Assembly (NCBI GenBank): GCA_040183005.1
Contig: JAMPIW010000007.1
Coordinates: 248,001-312,000 of the forward strand
DNA length: 64,000 nucleotides
Reading direction: 5' to 3'
DNA from: Gammaproteobacteria bacterium
GTDB lineage: Bacteria; Pseudomonadota; Gammaproteobacteria; Ga0077554; Ga007554
How positions within the stretch are numbered: the first letter of the stretch is position 1; each line of letters opens with the position of its first letter. The notes under the pieces were generated by a model. That model saw only the letters and a program-made list of their open reading frames with translations, was not told where the DNA came from and made no database searches. Position numbers and translations under genes: made by a program. Below, one piece after another: positions 55,887 to 64,000 of the stretch.

Positions 55887-56072
55887 CAGGCTTGTGAGGG
55901 CGTTGCTGGGCATGCTGCTCCTGCATCACCGCCAATCTGTGCCCGACACTTTTTGCATTTCGTATCAAAAATACCATGGAAAAAGAGCGGTTTTTTCACA
56001 TCCTGCTAGAGCTGGTGGGTGACAATGTTGATTGTGATGCCAATCAATATGACGAATGAATCTCTATTTTCT
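55887..56072. other. Intergenic region before the FNR-type promoter
   Basis: About 190 bp without a gene after the radical SAM protein. It becomes AT-rich toward the FNR box. GTTGATTGTGATGCCAATCAAT near 56026 is a further imperfect dyad that could be a weak second FNR-like or other regulator site. Confidence 0.4.
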
Positions 56073-56114
56073 TTGATCTAGATCAAAGTTTCTGGAGTTG
56101 GCCGGAGTTATATT
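56073..56114 (+). promoter_or_regulatory. Class II FNR/Anr-type promoter
   Basis: TTGATCTAGATCAA (56073-56086) is a perfect match to the FNR/Anr consensus TTGAT-N4-ATCAA. TATATT (56109-56114) is a good -10. If transcription starts about 56121, the box is centred at -41.5, the standard position for FNR activation. The first downstream gene is a 33-codon ORF, then a BON lipoprotein. Confidence 0.7.
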
Positions 56115-56140
56115 GATGCCGTAGTTAAGGAAAAGGAGAC

Positions 56141-56242
56141 ATGTCATTACCAATCTTGATCATGTCTATCTGCCAGTGTCTTAGCGGGCTTTTTGATCAT
56201 ATGACTTTTGGGTCGCAGATCAGCACAATATGGAGAATTTAA
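56141..56242 (+). CDS. Small hydrophobic protein (33 aa) under the FNR-type promoter
   Basis: An ORF of 33 codons with an excellent Shine-Dalgarno (AAAAGGAG, then AC, then ATG). The peptide begins MSLPILIMSICQCLSGLF and includes two cysteines; it could be a small membrane peptide or a leader. It ends two bases before the ATG of the BON lipoprotein gene (TAATCATG), so the two are likely coupled. I do not recognise it. Confidence 0.5.
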   Translation: MSLPILIMSICQCLSGLFDHMTFGSQISTIWRI

Positions 56243-56244
56243 TC

Positions 56245-56556
56245 ATGAAACAACTCAAATATTTTTCCGCATTATTTTTGGCTGTTATGCTGGCGTCTAT
56301 GCTGGGTTGTGCATCCACGCCAAAGCATGAGGGAACCGGGGAGTTTGTTGACGACACTGTCATTACCACAAAAGTGAAGGCTGCTATTTTCAATGAACCA
56401 TCCTTGAAGTCGGCCGAGATTAACGTCGAAACCTTTAAAGGCATTGTTCAGTTGAGTGGTTTCGTCACTTCTCAGGGCGCCATTGAGAAGGCGATCGAAG
56501 TTGCACGCAGTGTCAACGGTGTGAAATCCGTAAAGAATGACATGCGGGTTAAGTGA
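56245..56556 (+). CDS. BON-domain lipoprotein
   Basis: A 103-residue lipoprotein. The signal peptide ends in the lipobox MLGC. One BON domain follows (DDTVITTKVKAAIFNEPSLK, INVETFKGIVQLSGFVTS, VARSVNGVKSVKNDM). BON domains bind phospholipid or stabilise the envelope and are common in osmotic-stress proteins such as OsmY. Start 56245 has GGAG upstream. It is downstream of the FNR-type promoter and followed by a strong hairpin. Confidence 0.88.
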   Translation: MKQLKYFSALFLAVMLASMLGCASTPKHEGTGEFVDDTVITTKVKAAIFNEPSLKSAEINVETFKGIVQLSGFVTSQGAIEKAIEVARSVNGVKSVKNDMRVK

Positions 56557-56579
56557 ACGTAATAAATCGGCTTGTCACC

Positions 56580-56616
56580 CCCACGGTTCCCGGTGCCGAC
56601 ATCCGGGAACCGTGGG
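56580..56616. terminator. 14-bp perfect hairpin after the BON lipoprotein gene
   Basis: Arms at 56580-56593 and 56603-56616 (CCCACGGTTCCCGG and its complement) enclose a 9-base loop. There is no T-run. It may end the FNR-controlled transcript or be a REP-type repeat. Confidence 0.55.
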
Positions 56617-56799
56617 TCGGCTACCGGCGTATGTGACCGCGCCTTAAGGCGATGCTCACTGACATTCGGTACTGGCAGAAGCCGCTAACACCAGAAATGC
56701 GGAAGATACTTTCACTCCGATGGGCTTACGCCGAAGATGTCGTTTATGGTCGTCTTGGAGTGATGGTCAGATAAGTCAGAATCAGAAGGAGTAACAAAA

Positions 56800-56949
56800 A
56801 TGCTCGAAACTATTGCAGTCATTTTAATTATCCTCTGGATACTTGGGTTGGTCTCCTCATACACAATGGGCGGACTCATTCACATTCTTTTGGTCATCGC
56901 GATCGTGGTGATTGTGATTCGCGTCATTCAAGGGCGAAGGGTCTTGTAG
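56800..56949 (+). CDS. Lmo0937-like small membrane protein
   Basis: A 49-residue protein (MLETIAVILIILWILGLVSS at the start; GGLIHILLVIAIVVIVIRVI later) that fits the Lmo0937 family of two-helix membrane proteins, often found near stress genes. AGAAGGAG lies ten bases before the ATG. Function unknown. It sits between two BON-domain lipoprotein genes. Confidence 0.8.
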   Translation: MLETIAVILIILWILGLVSSYTMGGLIHILLVIAIVVIVIRVIQGRRVL

Positions 56950-57128
56950 TGCCCGCTGAGATACGCTTGGGCAGTGGCCGGAGTGGTGCGGCGGATTACT
57001 CGATCTCAGGGCTGCGTGCAGCTCTGCATTTAATCGGTTGATCAATTGGGCCTTGTGACGGGTGCGTTTTGTGATGTTCCTCGTCATCGGGTCCTTAAAC
57101 CATATATAGAACGGAAGGATTGCTGCGA

Positions 57129-57539
57129 ATGGATGTTTCAAAAAGATTTCTATTAGCAGAGGCCTCGATGATTCTCGCTGTTGGGCTTGCCGCATGCGAC
57201 AAACAACATCCGGCAGAAACGGCGGGCAAGTCAATAGACCAAGCGGCCGAGAAGGTCGGCGATAAGATGGACGAGGCATCAAAGAAGCTTGGCGAGCAAA
57301 GCGATAAGGCCGGTGAGGCCCTCGATGATGCCGCGATCACCGCTAAAGTCAAAGCAGCCATTCTTGCGGAGCCTGGTCTCAGGGTTCTGCAGATCAATAT
57401 TGACACCACGAAAGGCGTGACGACACTGAGCGGATCGATTGACTCGCAGCAAAGCAGTGATAGGGCCAAAGAAATAGCTGGCGCTGTGGCTGGAGTAAAA
57501 GGAGTAGAAAACCAGCTGGTGGTGAACTCAACCAAGTAA
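57129..57539 (+). CDS. BON-domain lipoprotein with Lys/Glu-rich helical linker
   Basis: A 136-residue lipoprotein. The signal peptide ends in GLAAC. A charged helical region (SIDQAAEKVGDKMDEASKKL) precedes one BON domain (DDAAITAKVKAAILAEPGLR, VTTLSGSIDSQQSSDRA). It is a probable envelope-stress protein. Start 57129 has GGAAGGA nearby; a TTG at 57120 would add three residues. It belongs with the coiled-coil gene that follows 35 bp downstream. Confidence 0.85.
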   Translation: MDVSKRFLLAEASMILAVGLAACDKQHPAETAGKSIDQAAEKVGDKMDEASKKLGEQSDKAGEALDDAAITAKVKAAILAEPGLRVLQINIDTTKGVTTLSGSIDSQQSSDRAKEIAGAVAGVKGVENQLVVNSTK

Positions 57540-57574
57540 GGACGAATTGTAACGCGCCCCTTAAGGAGTAACTC

Positions 57575-57862
57575 ATGGAAACGAAAGATGCATATAAGCA
57601 AAAGCTGGAGGCGCAACTGAAAGAATGGAGCGCTCAAATTAACCTGTTCGCTGCAAAGGTGGAAAATGCAGGGGCGGACGTGAAGCTCAAGTATGCTCAG
57701 GAACTCGATGTATTACACGCCAAACAGCGTGAGGCCGCCAAAAAGATCAAAGAGTTGGAGGATGCAAGTGGCGATGCCTGGGAAAAGGTCAAAGTGACCG
57801 CGGATAAGGTCTGGGATGACCTAAGGGCCGGCATAGCTCAAGCCATTTCCAAATTCAAGTGA
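57575..57862 (+). CDS. Small coiled-coil stress protein (sll1863-like)
   Basis: A 95-residue, highly charged, all-helical protein without a signal peptide (KQKLEAQLKEWSAQINLFAA, then KQREAAKKIKELEDASGDAW). It resembles the sll1863-type stress response proteins. AAGGAG precedes the ATG. Probably cotranscribed with the BON lipoprotein before it. Confidence 0.75.
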   Translation: METKDAYKQKLEAQLKEWSAQINLFAAKVENAGADVKLKYAQELDVLHAKQREAAKKIKELEDASGDAWEKVKVTADKVWDDLRAGIAQAISKFK

Positions 57863-57978
57863 AGCGGATGTAGAGGGGCAGGTTTGAATTGTTGATTATT
57901 TCACTGGCCTCTAGACTGATTTATGCCTTACAAGGGGATGGGTTGGAGTTTTGATGGTTTCATGGGGAGGGACAATTG

Positions 57979-59145
57979 ATGGGTCAATCTGCTGAAGCTG
58001 CATTGGTGACGCGATATGACAGAATATTTCGTCTGATTCAGAAGCGGTTAGCCGATCAGGTCAAAACCCCATTTGAGATTCGGTTGTGGGGAGATCGTAT
58101 CTATCGCTTTGGGAAGGGGGAGCCCGCTGTTAAGGTGCTCGTCAAGGATCGCGACGGATTGGTTGCACTTGGCGGATTGGATGAGCTGAGGATTTGTGAG
58201 GCATACATGGCCGGTAGCCTGGACGTAGCAGGGGATATGCTAGGGTTCGTCAGCCTCCGAGGAGTGTTGAGCGACCGCCATCCACTGCACACACTGTGGC
58301 GTCGGATTACGCCGTTGTTCGTCGGGCGGGTGGAGACCGACCGGCAGGCTATCGCCAGTCATTATGATTTCAGCAACGAGTTTTATCTGACATTCATGGA
58401 CGCGACGCGCTGCTATTCGCAAGCAGTATTTGAGCGCGATGACGAAACGCTGGAAACGGCGCAGCGCCGCAAGCTGGATTTTGCCATCGACTCGTGCCGG
58501 CTGCAGCCGGGCGATCGCGTCCTGGATGTCGGTGGCGGCTGGGGTAGCTTTATGGAGCATGCCGGACGGCGCGGCATACAGGTCACCTCACTGACTATTT
58601 CCCGCCACTCAGAGGAGTTTTTGATAGACCTGGTAAAGCGGCTCCAACTCCCCTGTCACGTGCTGAACCAGGACTTTTTGGAGTACACCTCGCCTGAGCC
58701 TTTTGATGCGATTGTGATTCTGGGGGTGATGGAACACCTTCCCGATTATCCGGCCGTGCTGCGGCAGTTTCAACGCTTGCTGAAACCGGGTGGACGTGTG
58801 TACCTCGACGCCAGCGCCTTCCGGGAAAAATATTCCAAACCCACCTTCGTCTCCCGCTATATCTTTCCGGGGGACCATTCCTACTTCTGTCTGCACGAGT
58901 TCCTGAACGCAGTGGCTAAAACACCGCTGGAGGTGTTGACGGTTCACAACGATCGCCACAGCTACTTCCTCACCTGCAAGGCTTGGGCCGAGAATCTGGA
59001 ATTAGCCCGGGACGAGATTGTCAGCCGCTGGGGCGAGATGCTCTACCGCCGCTTTCGGCTCTATCTTTGGGGCTCAGCTTACGCCTTTCTCAGCCGCGGG
59101 ATGGATGCGTACCGTGTGGTTCTGGAACGGCCCCAGGATGCTTGA
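57979..59145 (+). CDS. Cyclopropane-fatty-acyl-phospholipid synthase family methyltransferase
   Basis: A 388-residue SAM-dependent enzyme. The N-terminal lipid-binding part is followed by AIASHYDFSNEFYLTFMDAT, CYSQAVFERDDETLETAQRR, the SAM motif VLDVGGGWGSFMEHAGRRG and GVMEHLPDYPAVLRQFQRLL. The fold and HYDxSNxFY motif are those of CFA synthases. It is divergent from E. coli Cfa: the Cys of YSCAYW is Gln here, and the SAM loop lacks Cys. It likely modifies unsaturated membrane lipids under stress; the exact product is uncertain. Start 57979 has GGGGAGGG upstream. Confidence 0.85.
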   Translation: MGQSAEAALVTRYDRIFRLIQKRLADQVKTPFEIRLWGDRIYRFGKGEPAVKVLVKDRDGLVALGGLDELRICEAYMAGSLDVAGDMLGFVSLRGVLSDRHPLHTLWRRITPLFVGRVETDRQAIASHYDFSNEFYLTFMDATRCYSQAVFERDDETLETAQRRKLDFAIDSCRLQPGDRVLDVGGGWGSFMEHAGRRGIQVTSLTISRHSEEFLIDLVKRLQLPCHVLNQDFLEYTSPEPFDAIVILGVMEHLPDYPAVLRQFQRLLKPGGRVYLDASAFREKYSKPTFVSRYIFPGDHSYFCLHEFLNAVAKTPLEVLTVHNDRHSYFLTCKAWAENLELARDEIVSRWGEMLYRRFRLYLWGSAYAFLSRGMDAYRVVLERPQDA

Positions 59146-59195
59146 GCGATCAGCCTTGGATTATTAGCTCAACATGGAGCGTCCTAGGAGGCGCT

Positions 59196-60968
59196 ATGGC
59201 GGCATTTCTGCAATCATTGCTGAAAATTCAGGTTCAAGCGTTAATCCTGGTTGTAACTGCTATATGGCTAGCCGTCTTACCATTCCCTGCTGCAGACGCT
59301 TTGCAGTCTGACATTCCATACATGCAGCACATGCAGTTACGGCCCCTTGCTAATAATAATTTGATAGTGGAGCAGATGTTGTCCTCGGTTGTGAATGGTC
59401 TATTTGCAATTGTGGGTAAAGAAGCCCAGGCGGCGGATGGGGTGAGCGGCCAAGAAGGGTCCGCAGATGAGCAAGAGATTGTTGAGTTGATCGACCGAGC
59501 AGCGAGCGATCACGCTGCCTATAACATATTGATGGCGAAAATTTCTTATAACCCTCGAGTGAAAGAGAAAATTTCTTATCTTCGTCCTGATGAATATAAA
59601 AAGAAAAAGGCAGTCTGGCAGCTTGCTTTTCTTGCTTCTTACAACAATAACACTGCATTGAGCGCGTTGATCGGATTGGCCAATGATGATGGAAATGATC
59701 GCGCGATAGCCGTGTTAAGGAGGGTGGGGGAAGATAAAGTCTTGCTACTTCGGCAGGGTTATTTGGCTAATCACAACGAGAAGGAATTGCAGGCAAGATT
59801 TAGGGATAACAGCTTTAAGAATAACCCGTATTTTTTATATGTTTCTTTCCTCTCCAGAGAGAACTTCACGGCTTTAGCAAAGATAATTTTTGTGGAGCTG
59901 GAAAAACAGGCCAGCGGTCAAAATAAAGATTTGAATACCTTATTGCATGACTTAGACCCCAGGGGGCTCTTTTATAAAGATTTCATCCTTCAATCAGCCC
60001 ACTTTAGTATGTTGGAATATGTTGTGACAACATCTCGTTCGTTGTATGAGGTCATGGATCTTTTGTTTAAGGACTTGTCTCCTAAAGAAGTCAACACCTT
60101 TGCTCTGAGATTAGCTTTGTTTGTCGAAGATATTCTTCGCAGAAAGGAATTCCAGTATCAGAAGGAATTTCAGGAGTATCTGATGAAATTGCACGACGAA
60201 GCTACGGGGAGTAACAAGAGGCTTCTTGCTGCACTTGTAGTTGTCTACGAAGATCAACTGACATACCTGAATGCCCTGCAATTCGAAAATATTTCGAAGT
60301 TCAAGAAGGAGATTGGGTCTGATGTTGAAGAGAATATATCGCTGGAAGAGATGCTTGATCGGCCGTTGATAGTGCATATTGTTTTTGCCGATAGAGATGC
60401 CGAGCGAGACCATTATCAAGCAGCGCTAGGTTTTTTTAAATCGCATGGTTACACGTTCTTTTTAAATGACGAAGACAAGGTCATGCTTAAAAAAGGCAAG
60501 ATATTGCTTTCCTTAATAAAGGGCGATCCGGAAAGAAGAAAAGGATATGATATTAATGAACATTTGAGTGGCATAGATATTGTGGTGTCGCGAAGTCATA
60601 GCGGTCAAGAAAGCAGGGTGTTCAGGGGGCAATCTGCCCCGATCAACAAAAAAATGATCTTCCTTATCTCCTCTTGCAGGAGCGCCACAGATATACCGAG
60701 ATATAATGAGAGTTATCCGGGGGCGTATATAATTGGCGCAAACTCAACGGCGACCGGAGATGCGACTAATTGGATTACCTATTATTTACTGGAAGGTATA
60801 ACGAGCGGGATAGCTGATTTTCGGGATCTGGAAGCATATTTGAAAACAAATATAGAAAAGGCAGCGCCCAATCTACAGAGCGAGACAAACAGCTATGTTT
60901 TTCCAGCGGATGATTCTCAGATAGTGCAAAAAATCGTTCTGAAATATGGGAATGAATCTAAAAATTAA
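59196..60968 (+). CDS. Unknown exported protein with caspase-like (clan CD) C-terminal domain
   Basis: A 590-residue protein. Residues about 12-32 (VQALILVVTAIWLAVLPF) are a signal peptide or membrane anchor. A long helical, Lys/Glu-rich region follows to about 400 with repeat-like YNNNTALSALIGLAND segments. The last 190 residues look like a clan CD peptidase fold: a first strand LIVHIVFADRDAERDHYQAA, a strand ending in His468 (IDIVVSRSHSGQESRV), and a strand ending in Cys494 (KMIFLISSCRSATDIPRY), then PGAYIIGANSTATGDATN. The His and Cys spacing matches caspase and CHAT domains. The ATG at 59196 has AGGAGG upstream. The gene is clearly more AT-rich than its neighbours, suggesting transfer. 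Confidence 0.7.
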   Translation: MAAFLQSLLKIQVQALILVVTAIWLAVLPFPAADALQSDIPYMQHMQLRPLANNNLIVEQMLSSVVNGLFAIVGKEAQAADGVSGQEGSADEQEIVELIDRAASDHAAYNILMAKISYNPRVKEKISYLRPDEYKKKKAVWQLAFLASYNNNTALSALIGLANDDGNDRAIAVLRRVGEDKVLLLRQGYLANHNEKELQARFRDNSFKNNPYFLYVSFLSRENFTALAKIIFVELEKQASGQNKDLNTLLHDLDPRGLFYKDFILQSAHFSMLEYVVTTSRSLYEVMDLLFKDLSPKEVNTFALRLALFVEDILRRKEFQYQKEFQEYLMKLHDEATGSNKRLLAALVVVYEDQLTYLNALQFENISKFKKEIGSDVEENISLEEMLDRPLIVHIVFADRDAERDHYQAALGFFKSHGYTFFLNDEDKVMLKKGKILLSLIKGDPERRKGYDINEHLSGIDIVVSRSHSGQESRVFRGQSAPINKKMIFLISSCRSATDIPRYNESYPGAYIIGANSTATGDATNWITYYLLEGITSGIADFRDLEAYLKTNIEKAAPNLQSETNSYVFPADDSQIVQKIVLKYGNESKN

Positions 60969-61300: not shown

Positions 61301-64000
61301 ATGCCCATACTTGCTCATTCGGCCTCCGCGCAGCCATTTTCGCCTGCTAAAACCGCCTTGCCTCAAGGGGTGAACATATGTCCTCGCGAGCGGCTCTTTC
61401 AATTGCTCGATGACAGTCGACAGCACCCTATTATCTGGGTTTCCGGCCCGCCAGGCTCGGGCAAGACCGCCCTGTTATCCAGCTATCAGCAAGCGCGTGG
61501 TCTGCGTGTTCTGTGGTACCAGGTTGATAGCCGGGATAAAGATCCTGCCAATTTCTTTTACTATCTGGGCCTGGCCGCACAATATAAAAATATTGCTCTT
61601 CCGCACAAAACCAGTCTGCCGCTGTTCACAGCGGAATACCTGGCTGACCTTCCCGCGTTTACCAAAAGATATTTCAGCGAACTGTACCGCTGCCTCGATG
61701 CGCCATTTGTTCTGGTGCTGGATGACTGTCATGAAATAGACGAGAGATCCGATCTTTACCAAATCGTACAGCACAGCCTCTCGGAGTTGCCGGTAGGTGC
61801 ATCGGTGATTTTGACGAGCCGTGGCGCTCCGCCCCCGGCTTTCGCCCGTTTGCGCCTTAATCGAAGAATGAAAGTTATTGATGCCGATGAGCTCAATTTA
61901 ACTTTCGATGAAGTCCGCGATATTGCCGCGATGTATGGTGCTGATGAGGTCGATGAGGCCGCGTTGCGGCGTCTTCATGACAAGACACGGGGATGGACGG
62001 CAGGCCTGGTGTTGATGTTGGAACATGCCAAAGCACGCACCGTGTTGCCCCTTGCGGTAGACAAGGATACGCTTCAGATTATTTCCGATTACTTCGCGGA
62101 TGAAATTTTTCTGAAAGCAGACGCAGAGATGCAAGAGTTTCTATTGATGAGTGCGTGCTTTCAGGATATGACGGAAGACATGGTGGTGCAGCTCACTGGA
62201 AGGCCCGATGCCGGTGACATTCTTTCCGAGTTTAGCCGCAAACATTACTTCACCGAGAAATTCAGCGGCACCGAAACCTTATATCAATATCACGGTTTGT
62301 TTCGTGGATTCCTGTTGTCGCAGGCCAGAGCGTTCTTCTCCGCCGAGCGTTTGTTTGAGATTCAGCGCAGCGCAGCGCAGATTCTGGAGCGCGCGGGTCA
62401 GATAGACGAGGCTATCATGCTGTACATCACACGGGCGGATTGGGAAGCAGCCGCGACAGTGATGTTGAAGCACGCGGCTACCCTGACTGCCCAAGGGCGC
62501 TGTCAAACCCTTGAAGGCTGGATTCGCGCATTGCCTAGCAGTGTTATCGAACATACGGCGTGGCTGTTGTACTGGTTGGGTGTGTGCCGACTACCTTTTT
62601 CCACAGAAGAGGCGCGAGGGCATCATGAAAAGGCCTATGCACTTTTCAAGGCAGAAAATAACGCCGTGGGTCAATATCTGGCGTGGGCTGGCGTGGTGGA
62701 CACGTATCGCTATGAATGGGGAAATTTCACGCCACTGAACAAATGGATTGCTGAACTGAACATCCTGCTTGAAAGGAACCCTGGCTTCCCATCGCTTGAT
62801 ATCGAGATTCGCGTGCTGTCGAGCATGTTCGGAACCTTGATCTATAACTGCCCTCAACATCACCTGCTGCCCGTGTGGGAAGAGCGGCTCAAGACGCTCA
62901 TGGAAAGTTGCGCTGACAGAAATCAGCGGCTTATCATGGGTATCAACCTTCTGCCCTATTATTTCTGGATAGGCAATTTTGCCAAAGCGTGGATGATCTT
63001 CCGCTCATTGGAAAAAGAGGTTCGCGCGCCCGATGTACCCCCGCTAATACAAATTACCTGGCTGCTCCAGGAAGGCTTTTACAATTGGCTGGCGGGCTCC
63101 ACGGAGGCCTGCTGCAATGCAGTCGAGGAAGGATGGAGGGTCGCCATACAAACTGGCGTTCATGTCAGGGATTATCTGGTACTTGCCCAAGGAGCGGCGG
63201 GCGCACTAGTGGCGGGTAATTTACCATTGGCCGAGGAGTATCTACAACGCATGGCGCCGGTATTGAACGCTACCCGTATGCTGGATGTTGGCTACTATCA
63301 TTATCAGGCGGCCTGGCTGGCCTTGTTGAAGGGCAATCTGCCTCATGCGGTAGAGCACGCCGAAACATCTGTGCGCCTGGCGACGACGGCGGGTACGCCT
63401 TTTCCTTTGGCGCTGTGCTTGATAGGCCTGGCGCAAATCCTTTTCGAGCGCGGGCAAAACCGTCAGGCGCTAGTACATCTTGCTCATGGTCGACGCATTG
63501 GCCGCAGCATGCGTAGCGATCTTATCGAATACCACGCCTTGGCGCGTCTGTCGCTATACGCGCTGGATCAAGGAAAGCGGACAGCAGGTGTTTCCTTGCT
63601 GCGCCGGGTATGTGCCCTGAACAAGAAAATGGGTAACGTCAGCCTGCCTTACTGGAAGCCCTCCGATATCTCCAGGCTGTGTGCTTACGCCCTGGATGCA
63701 GAGATTGAAGTAGATCACGTCAAGGCCTACATCAGGCAGCGTTGTTTAGGCGTGGCGGATGATGTTGAGCTATTTTCCGATCAATGGCCCTGGCCTTTGA
63801 AAATTTACTCGCTGGGTCGTTTTCAGGTACTCAGGCAGGGTGAGCCGATTCTCTTCAGCGCCAAGGGGCAGCGCAAGCCGGTAGAGTTGCTGAAGGCGTT
63901 GCTGGCCTTTGGTGGGCGGGATGTCAGCGTCGAGCAGCTTGCCGAAGCGCTATGGCCAGAGGCCGAGGGTGACATAGCACGGCAGGCCTTCGATACCACA
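61301..64000 (+). CDS. MalT-like ATPase-TPR regulator with C-terminal SARP (winged helix/BTAD) domain, cut by the window edge
   Basis: The reading frame is open for 900 codons to the end of the window. Walker A is GPPGSGKTAL at about residues 49-58 and the Walker B-like strand is FVLVLDDCHEI; this is the STAND-type ATPase of MalT-like regulators. A long helical TPR-like region follows (about 330-800, e.g. AVEHAETSVRLATTAG). From about 828 an OmpR-like winged helix begins (WPWPLKIYSLGRFQVLRQGE), the start of a SARP/BTAD module. The decayed paralogue at 2085-3792 shows how it should continue. It probably senses a small ligand with the ATPase/TPR part. The ATG at 61301 follows GGGACGGA. Confidence 0.88.
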   Translation, partial: MPILAHSASAQPFSPAKTALPQGVNICPRERLFQLLDDSRQHPIIWVSGPPGSGKTALLSSYQQARGLRVLWYQVDSRDKDPANFFYYLGLAAQYKNIALPHKTSLPLFTAEYLADLPAFTKRYFSELYRCLDAPFVLVLDDCHEIDERSDLYQIVQHSLSELPVGASVILTSRGAPPPAFARLRLNRRMKVIDADELNLTFDEVRDIAAMYGADEVDEAALRRLHDKTRGWTAGLVLMLEHAKARTVLPLAVDKDTLQIISDYFADEIFLKADAEMQEFLLMSACFQDMTEDMVVQLTGRPDAGDILSEFSRKHYFTEKFSGTETLYQYHGLFRGFLLSQARAFFSAERLFEIQRSAAQILERAGQIDEAIMLYITRADWEAAATVMLKHAATLTAQGRCQTLEGWIRALPSSVIEHTAWLLYWLGVCRLPFSTEEARGHHEKAYALFKAENNAVGQYLAWAGVVDTYRYEWGNFTPLNKWIAELNILLERNPGFPSLDIEIRVLSSMFGTLIYNCPQHHLLPVWEERLKTLMESCADRNQRLIMGINLLPYYFWIGNFAKAWMIFRSLEKEVRAPDVPPLIQITWLLQEGFYNWLAGSTEACCNAVEEGWRVAIQTGVHVRDYLVLAQGAAGALVAGNLPLAEEYLQRMAPVLNATRMLDVGYYHYQAAWLALLKGNLPHAVEHAETSVRLATTAGTPFPLALCLIGLAQILFERGQNRQALVHLAHGRRIGRSMRSDLIEYHALARLSLYALDQGKRTAGVSLLRRVCALNKKMGNVSLPYWKPSDISRLCAYALDAEIEVDHVKAYIRQRCLGVADDVELFSDQWPWPLKIYSLGRFQVLRQGEPILFSAKGQRKPVELLKALLAFGGRDVSVEQLAEALWPEAEGDIARQAFDTT

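Follow-up and report, generated by a model that had tools for sequence, protein, structure and literature searches.

The cysteine peptidases of clan CD share a core topology in which the histidine of the catalytic dyad lies at the C-terminal end of strand beta3 and the cysteine at the end of strand beta4, and in all clan CD families a glycine directly follows the catalytic histidine (PMC4357240). Strands in the clan CD sheet take the order 2-1-3-4(-5-6), accompanied by helices alpha1 to alpha3. The dyad of human separase consists of H2003 and C2029, a spacing of 26 residues (PMC12609080), and, among prokaryotic metacaspases, 15% carry a transmembrane or signal segment (PMC3501461). Here we describe a gene whose 590-amino-acid product is a plausible candidate cousin of the caspase-type proteases. 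Our best reading is of a caspase-like cysteine protease, or a pseudo-protease, that would be anchored in the envelope and regulated through a helical domain.

The open reading frame runs from 59196 to 60968 on the + strand of the window, the whole 64,000-nucleotide stretch of gammaproteobacterial DNA that was analyzed, and homologues are found in three other genomes. A Shine-Dalgarno sequence, AGGAGG (59186 to 59191, + strand), ends 4 nucleotides before the ATG at 59196 and supports the choice of start codon. Comparison with two homologues, L003 and L004, indicated a dN/dS ratio of ~0.14 to 0.22 in the helical and C-terminal parts of the gene, the mark of purifying selection, and thus the frame is more than a chance open reading frame. 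Across the first 85 residues the ratio was ~0.8 in the same comparisons, as expected of a signal or anchor region. The gene is present in a single copy in its own genome and, as the earlier note had observed, is A+T rich, with a GC content of 42.4% compared to 55.2% across the window. The copy in a third homologous locus, L005 (29 to 1540), had a GC content of 54% on a contig of 58%, compared to 42% for the three congeneric copies in surroundings of 55 to 57%, and thus the low GC content is particular to one genus. We conclude that 59196 to 60968 is a genuine gene under purifying selection.

Relatives of the protein were found close at hand. The homologues in the genome collection were 86% (L003), 84% (L004), and 61% (L005) identical, and all came from gammaproteobacterial metagenome-assembled genomes. 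Besides the window there were three other loci, all within one GTDB family; of the 8 genomes examined of its order, 4 encoded the protein, representing 2 of 3 genera. Searches with a family profile covered 369 genomes at the level of the class and 398 at the level of the phylum and returned same-genus copies, chance matches, and one caspase lipoprotein, L015, that is considered below, but no further true homologue. Other weak profile matches (L013, L014, L018, and L019), among them a subtilase and a chemoreceptor-like protein, were judged spurious. Plasmids, phages, and viral contigs contained no relatives, and scans with Pfam, NCBIfam, PHROGs, and PADLOC models and against PDB sequences gave no credible match.

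Each of the L003, L004, and L005 copies was cut by a contig end inside the gene, for which contig counts gave chances of ~6%, ~10%, and ~31%, respectively, and ~0.2% jointly; differences between strains at this position are a possible cause of the breaks. The 5′ end of the L004 sequence (1 to 99) was unlike either the window or L003, and homology began abruptly near residue 126, such that the gene may have been rearranged there or the contig may be chimeric.

The surroundings of the gene differed from genome to genome. In the window, genes for a putative CFA synthase and BON-domain proteins lie upstream and a gene for a MalT-like ATPase lies downstream; in L003 a putative radical SAM gene is directly upstream, and the homologue is followed by putative tamB and tamA genes in L004 and by a putative nadC gene in L005, where neighbors lacking a Pfam match were named by reading. 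A conserved partner gene was sought across the window and the three other loci and none was found, such that the gene stands alone; for lack of such a partner, inference from an operon was dropped. The earlier note had raised a role in cell death or defense, for which we found no encouragement: PADLOC models gave no match, and the neighbors in the window and in L003 to L005 were housekeeping or envelope genes. Separately, the block between the radical SAM gene and the 590-residue gene in the window (55963 to 59189) encodes two BON-domain proteins, a 95-residue protein, and the CFA synthase-like protein, and its place is taken by only ~80 bases in L003 (3491 to 3572). Directly downstream, a MalT-like ATPase regulator with AAA_16 and TPR_MalT domains (61301 to 64000) runs off the end of the window.

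Hydropathy analysis indicated a candidate signal peptide or membrane anchor at residues 7 to 33 (59214 to 59294, + strand; Kyte-Doolittle 19-residue mean up to 2.3), which peaked in hydrophobicity at residues 15 to 33 and was followed by little positive charge. A possible alternative cleavage site, AQA/AD, was suggested by alignment at residues 77 to 81 (59424 to 59438, + strand), the counterpart of which reads AQAAD in L003 and RAAD in L005. Both features point to export, with the N-terminal segment either cleaved or kept as an anchor, and we consider export likely on sequence grounds. An envelope-directed caspase homologue had been expected to be unusual, an expectation at odds both with the published frequency among prokaryotic metacaspases (15%; PMC3501461) and with the signal-like N termini of 8 of the 22 C14 and 5 of the 5 C13 relatives that were checked.

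Structure models divided the remainder of the protein into two parts. Residues 86 to 376 (59451 to 60323, + strand) were predicted to form an all-helical domain that belongs to no known family, having no Pfam or PDB match, and residues 377 to 590 (60324 to 60965, + strand) to form an alpha/beta domain, a caspase-like candidate by the models and by profile comparison with C14. AlphaFold2, supplied with four sequences, gave a pLDDT of 55 for the full-length protein and a pLDDT of 67 with a pTM of 0.74 for residues 377 to 590. In these low-confidence models, the C-terminal domain consists in order of a strand, a helix, a strand, a hairpin, a short helix, the strand leading to H468, the strand leading to C494, a strand at residues 511 to 516 (YIIGAN), two helices, and a final strand, with only a short helix (residues 472 to 475) between the histidine and cysteine strands. 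We conclude that the predicted order of elements fits clan CD.

The candidate catalytic histidine, H468 (60597 to 60599), lies in the strand and loop IVVSRSHSG (residues 462 to 470; 60579 to 60605, + strand), and the candidate nucleophile, C494 (60675 to 60677), lies in the strand and loop KMIFLISSCRSAT (residues 486 to 498; 60651 to 60689, + strand). Next comes GAYIIGANSTATGDATNWITYYLLEGIT (residues 509 to 536; 60720 to 60803, + strand), a candidate fifth strand and fifth helix that, with residues up to 560, accounts for most of the resemblance to C14. The earlier note had read RSHSG with H468, SSCRSA with C494, and then IIGANSTATGDATN as the layout of a clan CD peptidase, and the three were found where it had placed them: each of the two residues comes right after a predicted strand (residues 462 to 466 and 487 to 490; low-confidence AlphaFold2 model), and SSCRSA is followed by GAYIIGANSTATGDATNWITYYLLEG. 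Loss of the pair in homologues would have spoken against that reading, and alignment indicated that neither H468 nor C494 varies among the four homologous proteins, none of which has a cysteine other than C494. At the cysteine frequency of the window, ~6.8 cysteines would be expected in 590 residues, and one is present. Because 123 of the 207 columns of the C-terminal domain (~59%) were invariant in the four-sequence alignment, invariance of the pair is weak evidence when taken alone, and the status of C494 as sole cysteine is stronger. A sole invariant cysteine is what one would expect of the nucleophile of an exported protein.

Two features set the candidate dyad apart from the described families. 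First, the histidine is followed by glycine at position +2 rather than +1, as all four homologues read HSG; the only HG in the protein is at H417, which is an arginine in L005, and thus there is no second HG able to serve. Second, the spacing between histidine and cysteine is 26 residues, compared to 41 to 66 in the 33 C14, CHAT, and C13 proteins measured, a range that omits one artefactual count (L070). Because of the HSG sequence and the spacing, the protein must not be filed under C14, CHAT, or another named family. We conclude that a distant place in clan CD is the best single guess.

Profile comparison supported a relationship to C14. When compared by hhalign to 28 bacterial C14 sequences, the C-terminal domain scored 39.5 (P 1.6e-5), and 200 column-shuffled controls reached a maximum of 20.9. 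The C14 scores of the domain, 37 to 39.5, were above those of every non-clan gene tested. Moreover, when each of 180 genes, drawn from the window and the fetched loci, was compared singly with C14, the 590-residue protein beat all unrelated genes and ranked among genuine CHAT and C13 proteins, and the genes above or near it were all members of clan CD (C14, C13, or CHAT), membership having been assigned by locus of origin. The signal persisted when SRSHSG was masked (score, 34.4) and fell to background when the helix at residues 524 to 560 was masked (score, 23.3). The one weak match of the family profile outside its own genome, among 398 genomes, was L015 (E 0.0056), a true caspase-domain lipoprotein that aligned in the right register over the same segment; since such an E value is expected by chance in a scan of 398 genomes, the match is informative only by its identity. 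L015 (292 to 1677) comes from another gammaproteobacterial family and has ankyrin-like repeats in addition to a caspase domain with SGHG and DSCFSG motifs. We conclude that the C-terminal domain has a modest similarity to C14 that is specific but comes mainly from one segment, WITYYLLEGITSGIADFRDLEAYLKTNI, and mostly from one helix (residues 520 to 560).

Other comparisons with clan CD remained at background. The Peptidase_C14 model (PF00656) gave no hmmscan match up to E values of 5 and 10, and a PF00656 search of the gene's own genome returned other genes only. CHAT (PF12770) and Peptidase_C13 (PF01650) gave no hmmscan match and hhalign scores of 17.8 and 20.4, respectively, and the best local alignments to these two profiles, at those background scores, set C494 on the catalytic cysteine strands. 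Gingipain C25 (PF01364) scored 16.8, also background, and C11, with a profile of three sequences only, scored 13, which is no match. Clan CD Pfam models including Separase (C50) gave no match in the scan, and agreement with separase was confined to the spacing of histidine and cysteine. HMMER sub-profiles around the C14, CHAT, and C13 cysteine strands failed to distinguish the protein from shuffles, and in ordered block-motif scoring the C14 and C13 blocks mostly picked the nonconserved H417. Elsewhere in the same genome and outside the window, a true C14 caspase gene lies ~4 kb from a CHAT gene (G000:C7:1005202-1010708; L001 and L055; 1913-residue frame), and the two are a possible caspase-CHAT pair.

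The reading that we favor, at slightly better than an even chance, is that of an exported, caspase-like cysteine peptidase that belongs to a distant, unclassified branch of clan CD and carries a helical N-terminal domain. The product would be exported to the periplasm and probably anchored in the inner membrane, where the histidine that ends one strand (H468) would activate the cysteine that ends the following strand (C494) for cysteine peptidase catalysis. The helical domain may bind a partner or substrate and control access, a regulatory role. If active peptidases and pseudo-enzymes are counted together, a caspase-like fold is probable. The fuller proposal of a new clan CD peptidase family, which is periplasmic and anchored, has HSG and a compact separase-like spacing, and carries a helical domain outside the known families, is tentative and falls well short of even chances.

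Instead, the C-terminal part could be an alpha/beta domain unrelated to clan CD, with a new or different fold, perhaps one that binds a periplasmic ligand or partner, in which a strand-histidine and a strand-cysteine coincide by chance. Such a domain would account for the lack of a family match and for a fold search in which, with the low-confidence (pLDDT 67) model, no clan CD structure appeared among the 50 best rows. Likewise, CHAT blocks fell on H468 and C494 in 4 of 4 proteins in ordered block-motif scoring, but not significantly, as 123 of 1,000 shuffles scored as well. That the C14 profile score exceeds those of all unrelated genes tested and of all shuffles, and that C494 is the sole invariant cysteine, nonetheless make an unrelated fold unlikely. 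The clan CD assignment of the earlier note holds in part: the conserved H468 and C494 and a specific if modest C14 signal speak for it, the missing His-Gly pair speaks against it, and the fold search with the low-confidence model gave noise-level matches as its best rows.

A second alternative is a caspase-fold pseudo-enzyme that descends from clan CD, has lost the ability to cut, and retains the conserved histidine and cysteine for binding or structure. Pseudo-orthocaspases that lack the dyad have been described (PMC6426788), and HSG in place of HG would be in keeping with such a loss. Moreover, the unmasked hhalign alignment lays RSHSG on the cysteine loop of C14, DSCHSG, and off its histidine motif, such that the cysteine is replaced in that register. 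The CHAT and C13 alignments, however, set C494 on the catalytic cysteine, no other HG can serve given the arginine at H417 in L005, and a sole invariant C494 would be difficult to account for in an enzyme that no longer cuts; we consider a pseudo-enzyme improbable, and more so than an unrelated fold. A Ras- or Arf-type GTPase-like domain is highly improbable, as the Arf/Rab/Ras-type structures that lead the fold search with both models do so at noise level (Z up to 8.2; root mean square deviation, ~3.5 to 4.3 over 130 to 147 residues), the absence of Walker A (P-loop) and NKxD motifs anywhere in the protein excludes an active GTPase, and a GTPase, once exported, would lack a source of nucleotide.

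Should the protein prove to be a peptidase, it would give clan CD a family that lies outside every current model and would show that the enzymes can dispense with the glycine next to the catalytic histidine, which is said to be shared by all families. As a pseudo-enzyme, it would be one more caspase fold that has been put to use in binding. In either case its restriction to one small gammaproteobacterial family keeps the broader significance modest.

Each of the described systems resembles the protein in part. Like Peptidase_C14 (PF00656), it has two consecutive predicted strands that lead to a candidate His-Cys dyad, as well as a fifth helix like FTYFLLKGMKDG, and N-terminal export signals are common among the bacterial metacaspases and orthocaspases; it differs in having no Pfam match, HSG rather than HG, a spacing of 26 rather than 41 to 65, and a similarity that lies mostly in one helix. 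The cysteine strand of CHAT (PF12770), LSACETA, resembles LISSCRSA, and by eye the GA..I......D.AT pattern that follows it resembles GAYIIGANSTATGDAT, but the profile score is at background, CHAT spacings are 43 to 66, and no TPR region was detected in the 590-residue protein. The exported, legumain-like bacterial members of Peptidase_C13 (PF01650) share export, 170 to 320 residues ahead of the domain, and a cysteine strand, VVVSACYSG, that resembles FLISACRSA, but they keep HG, have spacings of 42 to 43, and score at background. Clostripain and PmC11 (C11) have an extra beta-hairpin after beta2 and before the histidine strand, as does the model here (PMC4357240), whereas the C11 profile, of three sequences only, scored 13 and was no match. 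Separase (C50), which is eukaryotic and was compared in sequence by Pfam scan alone, keeps the glycine after its histidine (G2004), but it shares with the 590-residue protein both a His-Cys spacing of exactly 26 and a long helical region ahead of the protease domain.
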